In this document: positions 5,154-60,844 of the stretch, piece by piece
Layout of the letters: every line of letters begins with the position of its first letter
Position numbering within the stretch: the stretch's first letter is position 1
NCBI GenBank assembly: GCA_947581825.1
Contig: CANPVP010000004.1
Span: 124,001 to 188,000 of the forward strand
DNA: 64,000 nucleotides
Direction of reading: 5' to 3'
From: an uncultured Clostridia bacterium
GTDB lineage: Bacteria > Bacillota > Clostridia > TANB77 > CAG-508
The notes under the pieces: generated by a model
Databases searched by the model: none
Told to the model about the DNA's origin: nothing
The model's input: only the letters and a program-made list of their open reading frames with translations
Made by a program: the position numbers and the translations under genes

Positions 5154-6593
5154 TTATTTATTTAATTCTTCTTTAAACATTTCATTTAGCATTTGAGGAT
5201 TTGCTTTTCCTCTTGTTTCTTTCATAGCTTGTCCTACTAAGAAGCCTAATGCTTTCTCTTTACCTGATTTATAATCAGCTACAGATTGAGCATTTGCTGA
5301 TATTACTTTTAATACTACTTCTTTTATTGCTCCTTCATCAGAAATTTGTACCCAACCTTTTTCTTTAATTATTTCTGATGGCATTTTAGCTGATTCAAAC
5401 ATCTCATCTAATACATCTTTTGCAATCTTTGTACTTATTGTTCCTTTTTCAATTAAAGTAATAAGTTCTGCTAAATTTTCTGCTCCAAATGGAATTTCTT
5501 CTGGCTCTAATTCTTTACCATTTAATATTTTAGCAACATCTGACATTAACCAGTTACTAACTGCCTTTGGATTATTGCAAATTTTAGTTGCTCCTTCAAA
5601 TAAGTTAGATAAGTATTTAGATGCTGTTAATGCATTTGCTTCTTTTTCTGTTAGCTTGTATTCTTCTACATATCTTATTTTTCTGCTTTCTGGAAGTTCA
5701 GGTAAATTCTTTTTTATATTCTCTATGTAGTCTTCTGAAAGTCTTATAGCTACTAAATCTGGATCTGGGAAATATCTATAATCTTGAGCATCTTCTTTAT
5801 CTCTCATTGAAAAAGTTTTGCCTGACACATCATCCCATCTTAAAGTTTCCTGATCTATTTTTCCTCCATTTTCTACTACATCTATTTGTCTTTCAACTTC
5901 ATATTCAATAGCTCTTACAATTGATCTGAAAGAGTTCATGTTCTTCATCTCTGTTCTTGTTCCATACTCTGTAGCACCTTTTTTTCTTATTGATACGTTT
6001 ACATCAGCTCTTAAAGATCCTTCTTGCATTTTACAATCTGAAACTTCAATATACTCTAATATTGATTTCAATTTTCTAAGATAACTTTCTGCTTCTTTAG
6101 CAGATCTAATATCTGGTTCTGAAACTATTTCTATTAGTGGTACTCCTGCTCTATTTAAATCTACTAAACTTCCTCTACCATACTCATCATGATTTAACTT
6201 TCCTGCATCTTCTTCTATATGAATTCTTGTAAGTCTTATTTTCTTTTTTCCATCTTCATTTTCAATTTCAACATATCCTCTTTCACAAAGTGGCTTATCA
6301 AACTGAGAAATCTGATATGCTTTTGGAAGATCTGGATAAAAATAATTTTTTCTATCATTCTTACTATCTCTTGATATTTCACAATTTGTAGCTAATCCTG
6401 CTTTAACTGCATATTCTACAACTTTTTCATTTAACACTGGAAGAGTTCCTGGCATTGCCATACATATTGGACAACAATGTGTATTAGGTTCTCCACCAAA
6501 TTCTGTAGGGCAACTACAAAATATTTTTGTTTTTGTAGATAGCTCTGCATGTACTTCAAGTCCAATTACAACTTCATAATCACTTCTTGACAT
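5154..6593 (-). CDS. gatB: Asp/Glu-tRNA(Asn/Gln) amidotransferase subunit B
   Basis: GatB phosphorylates misacylated Glu-tRNA(Gln) or Asp-tRNA(Asn) and transfers ammonia from GatA. The N-terminal cradle domain begins YEVVIGLEVHAEL. It carries the zinc-type cysteine set CSCPTEFGGEPNTHCC-PIC (~27-45) and the nucleotide-site stretch DLNRAGVPLIEIVSEPD. The C-terminal tail (GQAMKETRGKANPQMLNEM) is the YqeY-like tRNA-binding domain. Length 479 aa matches the family (about 475). It is the last gene of gatC-HAD-gatA-gatB. The organism therefore probably makes Gln-tRNA and/or Asn-tRNA indirectly. Confidence 0.98.
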   Translation of the reverse strand: MSRSDYEVVIGLEVHAELSTKTKIFCSCPTEFGGEPNTHCCPICMAMPGTLPVLNEKVVEYAVKAGLATNCEISRDSKNDRKNYFYPDLPKAYQISQFDKPLCERGYVEIENEDGKKKIRLTRIHIEEDAGKLNHDEYGRGSLVDLNRAGVPLIEIVSEPDIRSAKEAESYLRKLKSILEYIEVSDCKMQEGSLRADVNVSIRKKGATEYGTRTEMKNMNSFRSIVRAIEYEVERQIDVVENGGKIDQETLRWDDVSGKTFSMRDKEDAQDYRYFPDPDLVAIRLSEDYIENIKKNLPELPESRKIRYVEEYKLTEKEANALTASKYLSNLFEGATKICNNPKAVSNWLMSDVAKILNGKELEPEEIPFGAENLAELITLIEKGTISTKIAKDVLDEMFESAKMPSEIIKEKGWVQISDEGAIKEVVLKVISANAQSVADYKSGKEKALGFLVGQAMKETRGKANPQMLNEMFKEELNK

Positions 6594-20090: not shown

Positions 20091-20165
20091 CATTCCTTTC
20101 TTAGGCATCTGGTTGGATAAGACGTATAATTTCTTTCCAAAATTGTAATATTTTTTAGCTAAAAT

Positions 20166-30923: not shown

Positions 30924-30952
30924 GTAGGCGGGCGATTACTAATCGCCCCTAC
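30924..30952. repeat. REP-like repeat family A (GATT core)
   Basis: GTAGGCGGGCGATT-ACT-AATCGCCCCTAC: conserved GGGCG/CGCCCCTAC ends with variable complementary centre. Confidence 0.75.
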
Positions 30953-30973
30953 GTCTATTCACTGCATTCGCAA

Positions 30974-33235: not shown

Positions 33236-33260
33236 GTGGGCGAATACTATTCGCCCCTAC
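33236..33260. repeat. REP-like repeat family A (GAATA core)
   Basis: GTGGGCGAATA-C-TATTCGCCCCTAC between the SUF regulator and sufC. Confidence 0.75.
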
Positions 33261-33291
33261 ACACATTTTTTGTATTTTTAATAACAACAGT

Positions 33292-35722: not shown

Positions 35723-35800
35723 CGTAATTTTTTTCTATTCTTGTTTTATTAAGCCAAACTATTATAATAACCTCTTTACCAATTTAATGAATAATAAATT

Positions 35801-35823
35801 GGGCGACCACTGGTCGCCCCTAC
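35801..35823. repeat. REP-like repeat family A (GACCA core)
   Basis: GGGCGACCA-C-TGGTCGCCCCTAC downstream of clpC. Confidence 0.75.
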
Positions 35824-35862
35824 AATGATTTTGGAAATTCATGAAAATTTTCTATTATAATT

Positions 35863-39413: not shown

Positions 39414-39464
39414 GGTTTGAAAAGAACTAAATTTCTATTGCAAAATTGTAATTATTTTTCAACC
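39414..39464. repeat. Structured element family C, internally deleted remnant
   Basis: GGTTTGAAAAGAACTAAATT...AATTATTTTTCAACC keeps only the outer arms of family C. It sits 4 bases after the mcsA stop. Confidence 0.6.
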
Positions 39465-42096: not shown

Positions 42097-42214
42097 TTTT
42101 AATCTCTCCTAAAATTAATTTATTATTAACAAGTATTTATTTATATGTTATTTTTTCTTATACTCTGTCCTAATAATTATATTATGCAGATTTTTTCTTA
42201 TTTCAAAAACGTAA

Positions 42215-42336
42215 GTTTGAAAAAGAATTAGTATATTGCTAGGCACATGAGTTTGAAATCAATGAGGCGTACTGGTGTACGTTGATTTGATTTCAAATGA
42301 AATGTAACGACGCAAGATGCTGATTATTTTTCAAAC
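42215..42336. repeat. Structured element family C, copy A
   Basis: 122 bases. Outer arms GTTTGAAAAAGAATTA / GATTATTTTTCAAAC. The inner branched hairpin is TTTGAAATCAA...GAGGCGTAC-TGGT-GTACG...TTGATTTGATTTCAAA. It abuts the natA stop codon (42337) directly and separates natA from natB. Same length as copy D. Confidence 0.85.
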
Positions 42337-43230
42337 CTATGCCTCTCCAACTTTTTCAATGAATATTTCATGCAAACTTGGCTTCTTAACTTCAAATTTA
42401 ATAACCTTTACACCTTTTACTGCTAACTCTTTATATAATCTATCTGGCTCATCTTCACTTTTTATTAAAATCTCATATTTATTGTCTACATTACTCTTTA
42501 TCTTAAGTCCTAGATTTTCAACTATTTTCGTTATATCTTCTTTTGTTATAACTTCCATGTTGTTAGATGGATATGAATTCTTTATCTCTTTTAAATTTCC
42601 TTTTAATACTGTCTTCCCTTTATTCAATATTAATACATCTGTACAAAATTCTTCTATTGATACCATTTGATGACTAGACATTACAATGTATTTGCCTTTT
42701 TCTATCAATTCTAAAATTATATTTTTTAACATTTCTGTATTTACAGGATCTAATCCGCTAAATGGTTCATCTAGAATTATCAAATCAGGATTATGAATAA
42801 TTGCTGTTATAAATTGAATTTTTTGTTGATTTCCTTTAGATAATTTCTCTGCTACTTTAAATTTATATTCTTCTATGTTTAATTTTTTTAACCAATAGTC
42901 AATTGAAGTATCTGCATTTTTTTTACTCATTCCTTTTAGATTTGCAAAATACATTAATTGATCATATACTTTAGTTTTTGGATATACTCCTCTTTCCTCT
43001 GGTAAATATCCAAAATTAACATTTTTTCTTGTAACTTCTTTTCCATTCCAATCAATTTTGCCTTGATCTTTTTTTAAGATTCCTAGCATCATTCTAATAG
43101 TAGTAGTTTTTCCAGCACCATTTGTTCCTAGCAAGCCAAATACTCCTGGCTTATCTATTTCAAAAGATATAGAGTCTACAGCTACTTTATCTTCAAACTT
43201 CTTTGTGACATTCTCTACCTTTAGCCCCAT
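42337..43230 (-). CDS. ABC exporter ATPase (NatA-like)
   Basis: Walker A GTNGAGKTTT, Q-loop region LPEERGVYPKTKV, signature LSKGNQQKIQF, Walker B LIILDEPFSGLDPVN and switch His SSHQM are all present. The C-terminal ~75 residues form the accessory domain seen in NatA/DrrA-type exporters. 297 aa. It is upstream of the permease at 40846 with a 240-base gap holding repeat copy A. Confidence 0.93.
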   Translation of the reverse strand: MGLKVENVTKKFEDKVAVDSISFEIDKPGVFGLLGTNGAGKTTTIRMMLGILKKDQGKIDWNGKEVTRKNVNFGYLPEERGVYPKTKVYDQLMYFANLKGMSKKNADTSIDYWLKKLNIEEYKFKVAEKLSKGNQQKIQFITAIIHNPDLIILDEPFSGLDPVNTEMLKNIILELIEKGKYIVMSSHQMVSIEEFCTDVLILNKGKTVLKGNLKEIKNSYPSNNMEVITKEDITKIVENLGLKIKSNVDNKYEILIKSEDEPDRLYKELAVKGVKVIKFEVKKPSLHEIFIEKVGEA

Positions 43231-47046: not shown

Positions 47047-47176
47047 TTAGTTGGAAAAGAATTAAATTTTGGCAAGGAAAATTTTATTAAAAAGGCAAGG
47101 GCGCATACTCTTTGTATGTAACCGCGTTTTTAATGAAATTTGACGTAGTAAAAATTGTAATTATTTTTCAACTAAA
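47047..47176. repeat. Structured element family C, copy B
   Basis: Outer arms TTAGTTGGAAAAGAATTAAA / AATTATTTTTCAACTAA. The inner hairpin is TTAAAAAGGC...GGGCGCATAC-TCTTT-GTATG...GCGTTTTTAA. It begins at the T-run of the pheS T-box terminator. Confidence 0.78.
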
Positions 47177-47177
47177 A

Positions 47178-47380
47178 AAGTGATTTCATCCTACATAGGA
47201 CGAAATCACTCGTGGTACCACCTAATTTCATTAATTTACAAAAATTAAACTCTAATAGTTTTAACGTAACAACCGCTTTGACCTACTTTTGATTTCTGCC
47301 AAAGGCAAAGAAAGTGAAATTTCTAATATATACGCAATAATGGATTTCAGCTATTTTCCATCTCTCTGTAAATGCAATTT
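47178..47380 (-). promoter_or_regulatory. T-box riboswitch (Phe) of pheST
   Basis: The minus strand holds the T-box core AGGTGGTACCACG. A terminator follows: AGTGATTTCGTCCTA pairs with TAGGATGAAATCACT and leads into a T-run. Upstream is a stem I region beginning ACAGAGAGATGGAA with CTGAAATCCAT. A TTC triplet in AAATTTCACTTTC could be the Phe specifier. Uncharged tRNA(Phe) would favour the antiterminator and turn on pheS-pheT. Confidence 0.92.
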
Positions 47381-47524
47381 ATATATTATACTTTGCTTTC
47401 TTATATGCTTATATATAATTAATGTAAATATTTTACCATAAAATATTTTACATTTCAATATTCCGTAATAATTTATTATAAATTTTTTTCATCTTTCATA
47501 TATCAAAACATTTATAATTTATAT

Positions 47525-48534: not shown

Positions 48535-48564
48535 AACTTCTGATTACATTTTAAATTAAAATCT

Positions 48565-48587
48565 CGGGCGAGCACTGCTCGCCCCTA
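48565..48587. repeat. REP-like repeat family A (GAGCA core)
   Basis: CGGGCGAGCA-C-TGCTCGCCCCTAC between two converging genes. Confidence 0.75.
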
Positions 48588-48627
48588 CAAAAGTAATAAA
48601 TTTATCTGTTTTATTGAGCTACATTTT

Positions 48628-55004: not shown

Positions 55005-55017
55005 TAAAAACATAAAT

Positions 55018-55136
55018 CTTCGAAAAGAATTGTGAATTTGGCAAGGCAAACGAACGAGAAAACCGGAGGCGTACGATTGTACTCCGAGGATTTTCGAGGT
55101 GAAGTTTAACACAGCCAAAACCAATTATTTTCGAAG
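55018..55136. repeat. Structured element family C, copy C (inside the por operon)
   Basis: Outer arms CTTCGAAAAGAATTG / CAATTATTTTCGAAG. GGCAAGGC is followed by the inner hairpin CGAGAAAACC-GGAGGCGTAC-GATT-GTACTCC-GAGGATTTTCG. It starts 13 bases after the porD stop and ends just before the porA ribosome site, within one transcription unit. Confidence 0.82.
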
Positions 55137-55158
55137 GAAGTGAAAGGAGAAATTTAAC

Positions 55159-56343
55159 ATGTCTATAAGAGAACGTTTAAGTGGTAATGAAGCTGTTGCT
55201 ATTGCTATGAAACAAATCAATCCTGATGTTGTTGCAGCATTTCCTATAACACCTTCAACAGAAATACCACAATACTTTTCAACATTTGTTAGTAACGGAA
55301 CTGTAGATACAGAATTCGTTGCTGTAGAAAGTGAGCACAGTGCAATGACTGCATGTATTGGTGCTGAAGCTGCTGGAGGTAGAGCTATGACTGCTACTTC
55401 AGCTAATGGTTTATCTTTAATGTGGGAAATGATTTACATTGCTTCAAGTTTAAGATTACCTATTGTTATGTCTTTAGTTAATCGTGCTGTATCTGGACCT
55501 TTAAATATTCACAATGATCATTCAGATGCAATGGGTGTTAGAGATGCTGGTTGGATAATGCTATTTAGTGAAAGCAATCAAGAAGCTTATGATAATATGT
55601 TAATGGCTCATAAAATTGCTGAACACAAAGATGTATTACTTCCTTTAATGGTTTGCCAAGATGGATTTATAACATCTCACTCTATAGAAAATATAGAACT
55701 AGTTGAAGATGAAAAAGTAAAAGCATTTGTTGGAGAATATAAACCAGAACATTATTTATTAAATAAAAAAGAGCCTATTGCTGTTGGACCTTTAGATCTT
55801 CAAGCTTATTTATTCGAGCATAAATTCCAACAAGCTGAAGCTATGAGAAAAGCAAAACAAGTTATTCTTGATGTTGCTAAAGAATTCGAAGAATTAACTG
55901 GAAGAAAATATTCTTTCTTCGAGGAATATAAATTAGACGATGCTGAAGTTGCTATCGTTTGTATGAATTCAACTGCAGGTACAACTAAAGCTGTTGTAGA
56001 TTCTTTAAGAGCTCAAGGTGTAAAAGCTGGACTATTAAAAGTCCGTGTATTTAGACCTTTCCCTACTGAAGAAATTGCAAATGCTTTATCTCATTTAAAA
56101 GCTGTAGCAGTTTTAGATAAAGCAGATTCATTAAATGCTGCTGGTGGTGCATTATTCGAAGATGTTACTTCAGCAATGTATGTTTCTGGAAAACAAGTTC
56201 CAATGGTAAATTATGTTTACGGTATTGGTGGAAGAGATACAAAAACAGATGATATTGAGGGTGTTTATAAAGATTTATTGGAAATAGTAAAATCTGGTAA
56301 AATAGATAATCCTTATAGATATTTTGGATTAAGGGAGGAATAA
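55159..56343 (+). CDS. porA: 2-Oxoacid (pyruvate):ferredoxin oxidoreductase alpha subunit
   Basis: Substrate-side subunit. The N-terminus GNEAVAIAMKQINPDVVAAF leads to PITPSTEIPQYFSTF, VAVESEHSAMTACIGAEAAG and ATSANGLSLMWEMI. The C-terminal transketolase-like CoA region is AIVCMNSTAGTTKAVVDSLR. 394 aa is normal for alpha. AAAGGAG precedes the ATG. The stop is three bases from the beta-subunit start. Confidence 0.95.
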   Translation: MSIRERLSGNEAVAIAMKQINPDVVAAFPITPSTEIPQYFSTFVSNGTVDTEFVAVESEHSAMTACIGAEAAGGRAMTATSANGLSLMWEMIYIASSLRLPIVMSLVNRAVSGPLNIHNDHSDAMGVRDAGWIMLFSESNQEAYDNMLMAHKIAEHKDVLLPLMVCQDGFITSHSIENIELVEDEKVKAFVGEYKPEHYLLNKKEPIAVGPLDLQAYLFEHKFQQAEAMRKAKQVILDVAKEFEELTGRKYSFFEEYKLDDAEVAIVCMNSTAGTTKAVVDSLRAQGVKAGLLKVRVFRPFPTEEIANALSHLKAVAVLDKADSLNAAGGALFEDVTSAMYVSGKQVPMVNYVYGIGGRDTKTDDIEGVYKDLLEIVKSGKIDNPYRYFGLREE

Positions 56344-56346
56344 AAA

Positions 56347-57303
56347 ATGGCATATAACTTAAAACAAATTATGGCAGAAAAGCCAGCTAGATTTACTGCT
56401 GGTCATAGAATGTGTGCTGGATGTGCTGCTCCAATTGTTGGTAGAACAGTTTTGAGAGCTTTAAAGAATGAAGATCATGCAGTTATTTCTTGTGCTACTG
56501 GTTGTATGGAAGTTTCTACATTCATTTATCCATACTCATCTTGGACAGATTCATTCATTCATACAGCATTTGAATGTGCAGCTGCAAATCTTGCAGGAGC
56601 TGAAGCTGCTTATAAAGCAATGAAAAGAACTGGAAAATTACCTAATGATGAACATACTAAGTTCATCGCTTTTGGTGGAGATGGTGGAACTTATGATATA
56701 GGTTTACAAAGTTTATCCGGAGCTATGGAAAGAGGACATGATATGGTATATGTATGCTATGATAATGGTGCATACATGAATACTGGTATTCAACGTTCTT
56801 CAGCAACACCTAGATTTGCTGATACTACTACTTCTCCTGCTGGTTCTAAAATCCCAGGAAAAATGCAATCAAGAAAAGATTTAGCTCAAGTTATGGCTGG
56901 ACATCATTTACCTTATGTTGCACAAACTGCACCACTTGGTAATTTTAAAGATTTATATGAAAAATCTGAAAAAGCTATATATACAGAAGGTGCTTGTTTC
57001 TTAAATGTTTTAGCTCCATGTCCAAGAGGTTGGGGATATGCAACTGAAGATTTAATGCAAATTATTAAGCTTGCTGTTGAAACTTGCTATTGGCCATTAT
57101 ATGAAATAGAGAACGGAAAATATACTATAAACTACAAACCAAAGAACAAACTTCCAATAGAAGAATTCTTAAAACCTCAAAAGAGATTTAAACATATGTT
57201 TAAACCAGGTAATGAATGGATGATAGAAGAATTCCAAAAAGAAGTTGATGCTAGATGGAATGAGTTATTAGTATTAGAAGAAGCAACAAACAAAGGCGAA
57301 TAA
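56347..57303 (+). CDS. porB: 2-Oxoacid (pyruvate):ferredoxin oxidoreductase beta subunit
   Basis: TPP-binding catalytic subunit. The N-terminal cysteine pair CAGCAAP and the CATGCMEVST segment provide Fe-S ligands. GGDGGTYDIGLQSLSGAMERG, then NGAYMNTGIQRSSATP, form the TPP and Mg2+ site (GDG...NxxYxNTG). 318 aa. The terminator that follows uses a REP-like palindrome. Together the four subunits supply reduced ferredoxin, fitting the AdhE and rubredoxin genes in the same window. Confidence 0.96.
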   Translation: MAYNLKQIMAEKPARFTAGHRMCAGCAAPIVGRTVLRALKNEDHAVISCATGCMEVSTFIYPYSSWTDSFIHTAFECAAANLAGAEAAYKAMKRTGKLPNDEHTKFIAFGGDGGTYDIGLQSLSGAMERGHDMVYVCYDNGAYMNTGIQRSSATPRFADTTTSPAGSKIPGKMQSRKDLAQVMAGHHLPYVAQTAPLGNFKDLYEKSEKAIYTEGACFLNVLAPCPRGWGYATEDLMQIIKLAVETCYWPLYEIENGKYTINYKPKNKLPIEEFLKPQKRFKHMFKPGNEWMIEEFQKEVDARWNELLVLEEATNKGE

Positions 57304-57304
57304 A

Positions 57305-57336
57305 ACAAAGGGCGACCATTGGTCGTCCTTTGTTTT
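57305..57336 (+). terminator. por operon terminator built on a REP-like palindrome
   Basis: ACAAAGGGCGACC-ATT-GGTCGTCCTTTGT, 13-base stem with one G-U, then TTTT, right after the porB stop. Confidence 0.85.
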
Positions 57337-57466
57337 AATGAATAATGAATATTGAATAATTAATAATTATTGTAAAAAAATTGCTTTGCAATTTTTTATC
57401 TAAAATTATATATTATTCATTATTAACTATTAAATATTAATTGCAATGCGAATGCATTGCACAAAC
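57336..57466. repeat. AT-rich palindromic repeats after porB
   Basis: Units AATGAATAATGAATATTGAA, AAAAAATTGC-TTT-GCAATTTTTT and AATTGCAATGC-GAAT-GCATTGC. They match, inverted, the repeats at 29474 and 30828. Confidence 0.6.
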
Positions 57467-57490
57467 GTAGGGGCGACCAGTGGTCGCCCG
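57467..57490. repeat. REP-like repeat family A (GACCA core, full)
   Basis: GTAGGGGCGACCA-G-TGGTCGCCCG. Confidence 0.75.
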
Positions 57491-57496
57491 CAAAGC

Positions 57497-58120: not shown

Positions 58121-58242
58121 GTTTGAAAAAGAATTAGTATATTGCTAGGCAGACGAATTTGAAATCAATGAGGCGTACTGGCGTACGTTGATTTGATTTC
58201 AAATGATGTCTAACGACGCAAGATGCTGATTCTTTTTCAAAC
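58121..58242. repeat. Structured element family C, copy D
   Basis: 122 bases, about 90% identical to copy A (same GAGGCGTAC-TGGC-GTACG tip and TTTGAAATC arms). It begins one base after the adhE stop on the minus strand. Confidence 0.86.
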
Positions 58243-58243
58243 G

Positions 58244-60844
58244 CTAAATTTCTTTTCCATAATAAGCATCCAACATAATCTGCTTAATTTCTGATACTAA
58301 TGGAACTCTTGGATTTGCACCTGTACATTGATCTTCAAAAGCTTTATCTGCTAATTCATCAACTTTAGATAAAAATTCTTTTTCATCTATACCAGCTTCT
58401 TTTAAGCTCTTTGGTATATTAAGTTTTTCAATTAAACCTTTTATTGCTTCTATTAAAGATTCTACACCTTGTTTATTAGTATCTGCTTTAAGTCCTATTC
58501 TCTTAGCTAATCTAGCATATTTTTCATCTGCTATAAAATATTCATATTTTGGGAATGAAACAAATTTTGTTGGCATTGTAGCATTGTATTTTATTACATA
58601 TGGTAATATTATAGCATTTGCTCTACCATGTGGTATATGGAATTCTCCTCCTAATTTATGTGCTATAGAGTGATTTAATCCTAAGAATGCATTTGTAAAT
58701 GCCATACCTGCTATACAACTTGCATTATGCATTTTTTCTCTTGCAACAACATTTGAACCGTTTTCGTATGCTTCTACCAAATTGTTAAATACTAATTCAA
58801 CAGCTTTTTCTGATAAACCATCAGTATAATCTGATGCCATATTAGAAACATAAGCTTCTATTGCATGTGTTAAAACATCCATACCTGTATCTGCAGTTAT
58901 ACTCTTTGGAAGAGACATAACTAAATCTGGATCTATAATTGCAACATCTGGTGTTAATTCATAATCAGCAAGTGGATATTTCATATTTTTTTCTTTATCA
59001 GATATTACCGCAAAAGATGTAACCTCTGATCCTGTTCCAGATGTTGTTGGAATTGCTACTAATTTTGCTTTTGATCCCATCTTAGGGAATTTATAAGTAC
59101 GTTTTCTTATATCCATAAATTTAAGTTTTAATCCTTCAACATCTGCATCTGGATTTTCATAGAATAACCACATACCTTTTGCAGCATCAATAGCACTACC
59201 TCCACCTAATGCTATAATAACATCTGGTTTAAATCTTTCCATTGACTCTACTCCTCTTTTAATAGTATTAAAAGAAGGATCTGACTCTACATCTGAGAAT
59301 ATCTCAGAGTGAACATATTCAGCTCTTTTTCTTAAATGATATAATATTTTATCTACATATCCTAATTTTACCATTGATTCATCTGTAACAATGAAAGCTC
59401 TTGTAATATTAGGCATTTTCTCTAAATATCCTATTGAACCTGCTTCAAAATATATTTTTTCTGGAACTTTAAACCATTGCATATTAACCCTCCTCTTTGC
59501 AACTCTCTTTACATTAATTAAATTAACTGAAGACACATTTGCTGTTGTTGAATTTCCACCAAAAGTACCACATCCTAATGTAAGTGATGGCATATTTGTA
59601 TTGTATATATCTCCAATAGCTCCATGTGTTGATGGTGAGTTAACAATTATTCTTCCTACTCTTACTCTATTTGAAAATTCTTGTATAGTTTCTTTATCTT
59701 CTGAATGAATTACTGCTGAATGTCCTAAACCTCCAAATTCTAGTAGTCTCTCAGCTAAGTCAAATGCTTCTTCTTTATTTTTTACAGTATAATATGCTAA
59801 TACTGGACTTAGTTTTTCTCTTGAGAAAGGATGCTCCTCTCCAACTCCATCTTCTTTAACTACTAAAACTTTTGTGTCTTCTGGAATTTCTATTCCAGCA
59901 CTTTTTGCAATGTTGTATGGGCTACTTCCTGCAATTTTTGAATTTAATGTATTTCCCTTTTCTGCTACAAACATTGATTTTTGTAATTGTTCTTTTTCTT
60001 TGCTAGTACACAAATAACATCCTGCATCTTTCATTAATTTTTCAAATTCTTTACTTATTTCTTTATCTACAATTACAGCTTGTTCTGATGCACAAATCAT
60101 TCCATTATCAAAAGATTTTGACATTACTAAGTCATTTACTGATGTCTTTAATTTTGCTGTTTTATCTATATAACAAGGAACATTTCCAGGTCCAACTCCT
60201 AGAGCTGGTTTTCCACATGAATATGCAGCCTTTACCATTCCTGTTCCACCTGTTGCTAATATTAAATTTACATCTGGATGATTCATAAGCATACTTGTTG
60301 CTGTTATACTAGGTTCTTCTATCCATAATATACAATTTTCAGGTGCTCCTGCTTCAATAGCAGCATCCCTTAATATTCTAGCAGCTTCTACACTACATTT
60401 TTGAGCTGATGGATGGAATCCAAAAACTATAACATTTCTTGTTTTTGCTGCTATTAATGATTTAAACATTGTTGTTGATGTTGGATTAGTAACTGGTGTA
60501 ACACCTGCTATGATTCCTATAGGCTCTGCTATTTCCTCATATCCTTCTTCTTCATTTTCTGCAATTACACCTACTGTTTTTCCATATTTTATGCTGTGAT
60601 ATACATACTCTGTAGCAAACATATTCTTTGTAATCTTATCTTCGTATATACCTCTTCCTGTTTCTTCAACAGCCATTTTAGCTAATTTCATATGGTTTTC
60701 CAAACCTGCCATAGCCATTTTTTTAATGATGTTATCAACAGTTTTTTGATCTAATTTTAAGTATTCTTTTGAAGCTTTCTTTGCCTTAACTATAAGGTCG
60801 TCTATCATCTGTTTAATCTTCTCTTCATTATTATCTTTTTCCAT
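58244..60844 (-). CDS. adhE: Bifunctional aldehyde/alcohol dehydrogenase AdhE
   Basis: Reduces acetyl-CoA to ethanol in two steps, regenerating NAD+. N-terminal CoA-acylating ALDH domain (residues ~1-440) with NAD site and catalytic Cys in [15 protein letters not shown]-terminal iron alcohol dehydrogenase domain (~450-866) with [30 protein letters not shown] and iron-ligand region [19 protein letters not shown]. 866 aa is the family length. AGGGAGG precedes the ATG. An extended -10 lies at 60911-60919; no perfect Rex site is seen. Confidence 0.98.

Follow-up and report, generated by a model that had tools for sequence, protein, structure and literature searches.

A widespread, mobile, structure-coded hairpin abutting gene ends in Clostridia and other bacteria

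Long intergenic hairpins inside transcription units are represented by ERIC (127 bp), bcr1, NEMIS and other MITE-like elements, and ERIC, bcr1 and NEMIS, which are confined to one bacterial group, have conserved terminal inverted repeats. The element described here, found in a 64,000-nt stretch of DNA from an uncultured Clostridia bacterium (the window), resembles them in length, in forming a long hairpin and in its intergenic position within transcription units, but its ends are random in sequence yet complementary, its core is conserved and its range extends across phyla. Skipping-rope RNA is a long hairpin reported near opposite-strand terminators; neither its Rfam model nor that of any other bacterial motif matches any copy tested. 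Integron attC sites, which are recognised by structure as a folded single strand and in cassettes lie right after stop codons, also invite comparison. Unlike attC, the element lacks conserved RYYYAAC/GTTRRRY ends and cassette arrays, and is dispersed beside housekeeping genes.

There is a further likeness to REPINs and BIMEs, which go with RAYTs (relatives of IS200/IS605): these too are short, non-coding, multi-copy intergenic palindromes that form a hairpin on one strand, carry no gene of their own and often lie in operons. However, REPINs have conserved ends, and the REP/REPIN class is defined by a conserved GTAG/GTGG tetranucleotide at the hairpin foot (PMC6006769), whereas the present element is ~120 nt long with near-invariant internal loops and freely varying outer arms that leave no fixed foot. 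Its outer stem differs from site to site, its 3' end is set against stop codons, it is also present where no Y1 protein was detected in the genome, and none of 20 RAYT-like genes is flanked by copies. The element works like a member of the REPIN/MITE class, being small, non-autonomous and hairpin-forming, but lacks the conserved ends and the flanking RAYT.

A sequence-only reading of the window had proposed a family of four such copies and a remnant, all of which proved real, with the motif strand on the plus strand in each. Copy A (42215..42336; 127.1 bits with a covariance model) has its 3' end flush (0 nt) with the TAG stop of gene 42337-43230, and copy D (58121..58242; 125.8 bits) ends 1 nt off the TAG stop of gene 58244-60844, both genes lying on the opposite strand, so that the distances of 0 and 1 nt first noted hold, with the 3' ends facing the stops. 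The two are, as had been claimed, equal in length (122 nt each) and very similar (94% identity across an extended 125-nt repeat); copies B and C are more distant relatives that share the layout. Copy B (47049..47173, refined by the covariance model from a start at 47047; 65.7 bits) does lie beside the pheS terminator. This is a T-box terminator on the opposite strand (Rfam T-box 47193-47413), and the 3' end of B stands against its U-run. Copy C (55017..55137, likewise refined from 55018; 96.2 bits) starts 12 nt past the porD stop, one less than the 13 first given, and its 3' end is 6 nt ahead of the Shine-Dalgarno sequence of gene 55159-56343. The remnant at 39414..39464 (plus strand, 51 nt) is internally deleted, consists of the outer arms of a B-like copy and adjoins the mcsA stop; its covariance-model match is weak (E 0.097). 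A probable second 51-nt remnant (20111..20161, plus strand) has ~70% identity to it and is without covariance-model support. About 17 copies and a remnant are found by a covariance model built from ten copies in the 1.79-Mb source genome, and the presence of four of them within 64 kb is a significant clustering (p 0.003). The window also holds a second, short REP-like palindrome family (GGGCGACCACTGGTCGCCCCTACA; 30929-30961, 33237-33269, 35792-35825, 48557-48590, 57301-57334 and 57462-57495), which has many copies in the sister genome too and is possibly the true RAYT substrate here.

Each window copy forms one long hairpin with internal loops. The original description of a branched, two-level palindrome with compensating arms stands as regards the compensation, for which the covariation is strong, and not as regards the branching. 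Fold z-scores are -11.6 for copy D and -10.8 for copy A (0/200 among dinucleotide-shuffled controls), and copy D folded as RNA has an energy of -57 kcal/mol against a shuffled mean of -22.5. The covariation score of 0.519 compares with 0.185 for shuffles, none of 500 of which reaches it, and with at most 0.15 when the partners are slid; changes on both sides are seen in 44 of the 49 base pairs (42 copies from ~20 genomes). In 28 copies from other phyla, whose GTAC letters were partly forced by the search pattern, both-side changes occur in 19 of 26 predicted pairs. The near-invariant letters are in the internal loops, AGG on the 5' side and AAC on the 3' side, and in a tandem G.A motif flanking the apical stem (GAGGCGTAC....GTACGYYGA), giving a plus-strand pattern of ...GCnAGGC...GAGGCGTAC....GTACGYYGA...AACnnnGC.... 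A conserved mismatch ~11 nt from the ends marks the border between variable outer arms and constant core, and almost all copies are ~105-127 nt long, ~120 nt being typical.

One strand of the element is its functional folded form, as judged from an excess of G.T over A.C pairs in the outer 8 bp (55:8 in a close set of copies and 32:11 in a wide set) and from the better folding of the motif strand, which outfolds its complement in 142 of 149 close-set and 90 of 97 wide-set copies. In most copies this strand runs antisense to the mRNA that the element adjoins, so the strand constraint is best put down to the element's own propagation rather than to a role in the mRNA.

Placement is far from random. 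Of 319 copies, 156 have their motif-strand 3' end at -14 to +9 nt relative to a stop codon of the opposite strand, compared with 8/319 in the mirror control (a 5' end beside a same-strand stop), and where the intergenic gap is at least 60 nt, 41 of 74 copies are within 7 nt of the stop as against 3.3 expected. The suggestion of a 3'-end-targeting element is thus upheld in the window, in its genome and in other phyla; single distances are less sure in GC-rich genomes, the gene calls being plain longest-ORF calls. In 30 of 122 stop-abutting copies, those with a gap of -4 or less, the stop codon is well inside the element arm and is thus provided by the element itself. The remaining copies mostly stand against opposite-strand terminators (like B), short genes that the ORF calling overlooked, or same-strand Shine-Dalgarno sequences (like C). 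Flank logos revealed no sequence motif common to the flanks and no fixed target motif beside the 3' end. Copies follow stop codons inside ribosomal-protein operons, and some are kept at orthologous sites across genera, for example before a 275-aa gene in G000, G001, G004 and G024 that, from its length, we take to be rplB. One copy (L202 3957-4078) lies directly upstream of 16S rRNA and another (L186 1317-1436) in a probable rRNA leader or spacer.

The hairpin is mobile. Near-identical copies occupy non-homologous sites, and several copies, A among them, have empty sites in a sister genome (G001) that is 97% identical in the ribosomal-protein region, in support of the recent spread proposed from the sequence; the site orthologous to copy D is filled in G001 as well (L061/L049). 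At copy A the empty site, ttttttcttaTTTCAAACctatgcc (L139), reads ttttttctta-TTTCAAAC-ctatgcc, and the filled site reads ttttttctta-TTTCAAA-AACGTAA-GTTTGAAA...core...TTTCAAAC-ctatgcc. The 3' arm therefore predates the insertion and the 5' arm is its complement. The 7-nt target TTTCAAA is present on the right within the 3' arm (42329-42335) and again on the far side (42201..42207, plus strand), where it is followed by a 7-nt spacer, AACGTAA (42208..42214, plus strand), that came in with copy A. The same junction formula is seen at L062-4271 and L081-1492, and with one mismatch at L018, so that the argument about target and arm is made from three clean filled/empty pairs and one imperfect one. 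A left target copy sought at a fixed offset is undetectable in most copies, as is to be expected only if those copies are old, and the weak signal means that the formula rests on recent insertions. In some distant copies (L202, L196, L206) direct repeats of 8-10 nt lie immediately beyond the arms, and a single junction formula does not, therefore, cover all cases. DDE-type MITEs combine conserved terminal inverted repeats with a target duplication of constant length; here three or four insertions have direct repeats of 7 nt, others have repeats of 8-10 nt and most copies have none, and the termini are complementary without being conserved in sequence.

The outer arms appear to be rewritten in the course of transposition. 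Paralogs with similar cores (90-99% identical) often differ at the outermost pairs on both sides together, as with the arms AAATCAATTA/TAATTGATTT versus GAATAAATTA/TAATTTATTC, whose cores are 99% identical, or TGTCCAAAAA versus CGTTGGAAAA, whose cores are 97% identical. Over the outer 9 pairs, intact double changes relative to one-sided changes among paralogs in five genome groups number 39/21, 15/2, 108/20, 34/2 and 47/46, whereas orthologous copies at the same site show 28 one-sided and only 2 double changes over 642 pairs, 11 of the 28 breaking the pair. The difference has a Fisher p of 9e-6 to 6e-16 per genome group, the pairs compared being not independent, and implies that complementary change goes with movement and not with residence. 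Continuous hairpin gene conversion at fixed sites is ruled out, since orthologous copies change on one side only. The inner arm bases are mostly retained from hop to hop, so the old arm may help to select a site by pairing in part with the new target.

The reading to which we incline, though only a little beyond even, is that the element is mobile but non-autonomous, is recognised by its structure and takes up a copy of its target in its stem. The plus strand, probably as single-stranded DNA although RNA is possible, would fold into the ~120-nt hairpin, and its internal-loop motifs would be bound by a mobilising enzyme supplied in trans. Insertion would put the 3' end of the folded strand after an opposite-strand stop or terminator, or just before a Shine-Dalgarno sequence. 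A target sequence of ~7-10 nt would be turned into one outer arm at insertion and the other arm would be newly synthesised, or altered, to complement it. The simplest route is a snap-back step in which the strand would fold back and prime synthesis on the target. A short repeat of the target and a spacer of ~7 nt would remain on the far side. However, the ~7-nt spacer is left without explanation by this copying model, and one sublineage, Y, has fixed, non-complementary ends and lies away from stops. In addition, if copies that transpose were strongly selected for a perfect stem, the outcome after several hops could mimic the rewriting of arms. The members of sublineage Y (L319, L320, L322, L323, L324, L325 and L327-L329, from G321, G198 and part of G248) have the ends GACCCAGGGGTAG ... 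CAGCATGCA and lack both a target repeat and an association with stop codons; they may show ancestral or autonomous ends.

Mobilisation by a RAYT-like Y1 transposase in trans, with the hairpin as a non-autonomous element of the IS200/IS605 (HUH/Y1) type, is unlikely. The 5' arm would then be a guide that pairs with the left target for left cleavage and with the element 3' end for right cleavage, and the apparent 7-nt duplication would simply be the identity of the two cleavage sites. Guides of IS200/IS605 type sit 5' to the hairpin foot (PMC6006769). The filled-site formula, T-S-T'-core-T, suits such a guide geometry, as does the use of a single folded strand, and RAYT-like Y1 proteins of at least 240 aa are found in 10 of 13 element-rich relatives but in only 4 of 18 element-free ones (p 0.004). 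Even so, no Y1 match is found in G017 and G024, with 16 copies each, or in G088, and no element is near any of the 20 RAYT genes, so the search for a RAYT partner, proposed from the sequence, has not established one. Target-matching guides should not shift by 2-4 bp per hop, a guide in this family would have a length of ~7-10 nt instead of 4, and Y1 elements favour the lagging-strand template, whereas the folded strand of copies beside co-oriented genes would lie on the other strand. Non-autonomous IS200/IS605 derivatives insert 3' of a fixed short target, with a guide that pairs with the target and no target duplication; here the target is complementary to the 5' arm in the filled/empty pairs and sublineage Y shows no duplication, but the target is not fixed and the arms are rewritten.

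A retro-element, whose plus-strand RNA is reverse transcribed from its 3' end onto a transcript 3' end or a nicked strand, would account for 3' ends that coincide with stops, terminators and the edges of Shine-Dalgarno sequences, for a 3' junction that is precise while the 5' junction is loose, and for wobble pairs, which are typical of RNA. It is nevertheless very unlikely, as no RVT_1 gene is present in the element-rich G000, G001, G004, G027 and G029, five draft genomes that may miss genes, and neither poly(A)- nor cDNA-like features were seen. Bridge-RNA recombination of the IS110 type is not supported, the DEDD recombinase exceeding the cut-off in only 8 of 38 relatives and in none of G000, G001, G004 and G014. 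No mobilising gene was found among the RT, Y1/RAYT and IS110 candidates checked, none of which is supported as a universal partner, and the 97 wide-set copies have no recurrent neighbouring gene beyond ordinary shared operons. Finally, the hairpin might be an RNA structure useful to the host, such as a 3'-UTR stabiliser, a processing site or an attenuator, selected after stops and spread incidentally. The copies in ribosomal-protein operons and those conserved between genera are as such a role would predict, but the well-folding, wobble-carrying strand is the antisense one, occurrence among relatives is patchy, and the one-sided, pair-breaking stem changes at fixed sites mean that single copies are not under strong structural selection. 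The mRNA 3' structure offered earlier as an alternative to targeting is accordingly not favoured, and a host-useful RNA is given a very low probability.

The family is widespread as well as patchy. It is present in 20 of 38 relatives, with up to 28 copies each (4-28 in many), and in at least 26 of 348 genomes sampled phylum-wide, the counts in this sample being lower bounds as ten candidates were scored per genome. A DNA pattern for the apical part picked out at least 113 stretches in Planctomycetota, Myxococcota, Rokubacteria, Nitrospira, Acidobacteria, Spirochaetia, delta-proteobacterial lineages, Burkholderiales and Clostridia, and full-length structures in those phyla were recovered by a model trained on relatives of the window only. 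Copies per genome reach 19 and 22 in two Rokubacteria, 15 in a member of the Myxococcales, 18 in a planctomycete, 18 in Nitrospira, 34 in Syntrophobacterales, 11 in Acidobacteria, 20 in Oryzomonas (a relative of Geobacter) and 6 in Spirochaetia, and an uncultured Clostridium MAG (G396) has 71 matches, or ~70 copies. Two copies (747-872 and 5426-5551) are carried by L301, a phage-like IMG/VR contig with tailed-phage structural genes, and a phage of this type is a possible vehicle for transfer between phyla; blastn of three query copies against plasmid and phage collections gave no match.

The Rfam 15 covariance models, at gathering and permissive thresholds, gave no credible match on the elements, and no description of the family was found in Rfam or in the open-access papers searched; it may have a name in the subscription literature or in ISfinder. 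Random placement or a match to a known repeat family would have spoken against the first interpretation, and neither was found. It is conceivable, though we hold it as a tentative view, that this is a previously undescribed class of element present across many phyla, recognised as a folded single strand, landing at gene 3' ends and often supplying the stop, with its outer stem rewritten as a copy and an inverted copy of the target by a novel enzyme; there is a fair chance that the mechanism of insertion is new. If so, one ~120-nt structure-coded family would explain many unexplained gene-end palindromes throughout bacteria, and would provide a new, testable mode of DNA insertion in which the stem is templated by the target. 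It would also point to a novel enzyme that reads a conserved fold, and to the editing of gene ends, last codons as well as stops, by a mobile element, in ribosomal-protein genes too. An annotation model made from the element would flag thousands of copies.

Some copies depart from the simple hairpin. Tandem copies a few to ~40 nt apart (L063 7070-7302, L064 1-243, L178 1280-1547 and L171 1039-1325) suggest local amplification of the element plus its flank. In Acidobacteria (L353, L416, L417) and Planctomycetota (L241, L245, L377) the element can lie within a longer palindrome, with ~20 nt extra per side. The apical loop of long copies (~171-174 nt; L062 6807-6980 and L078 11461-11631) holds another hairpin repeat, CTGAGGCTGTTAAGGC..GCCTGTTACAGCCTCAG-like, which also adjoins the G001 copy orthologous to D. 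Similarly nested mobile hairpins are seen in L459 (G407 C1:171900-172900), the ortholog of G396 C11:19310, where the stem contains a ~118-nt hairpin-like insert with the inverted end AAAGTAACAAAG../..GTTACAAAGA.
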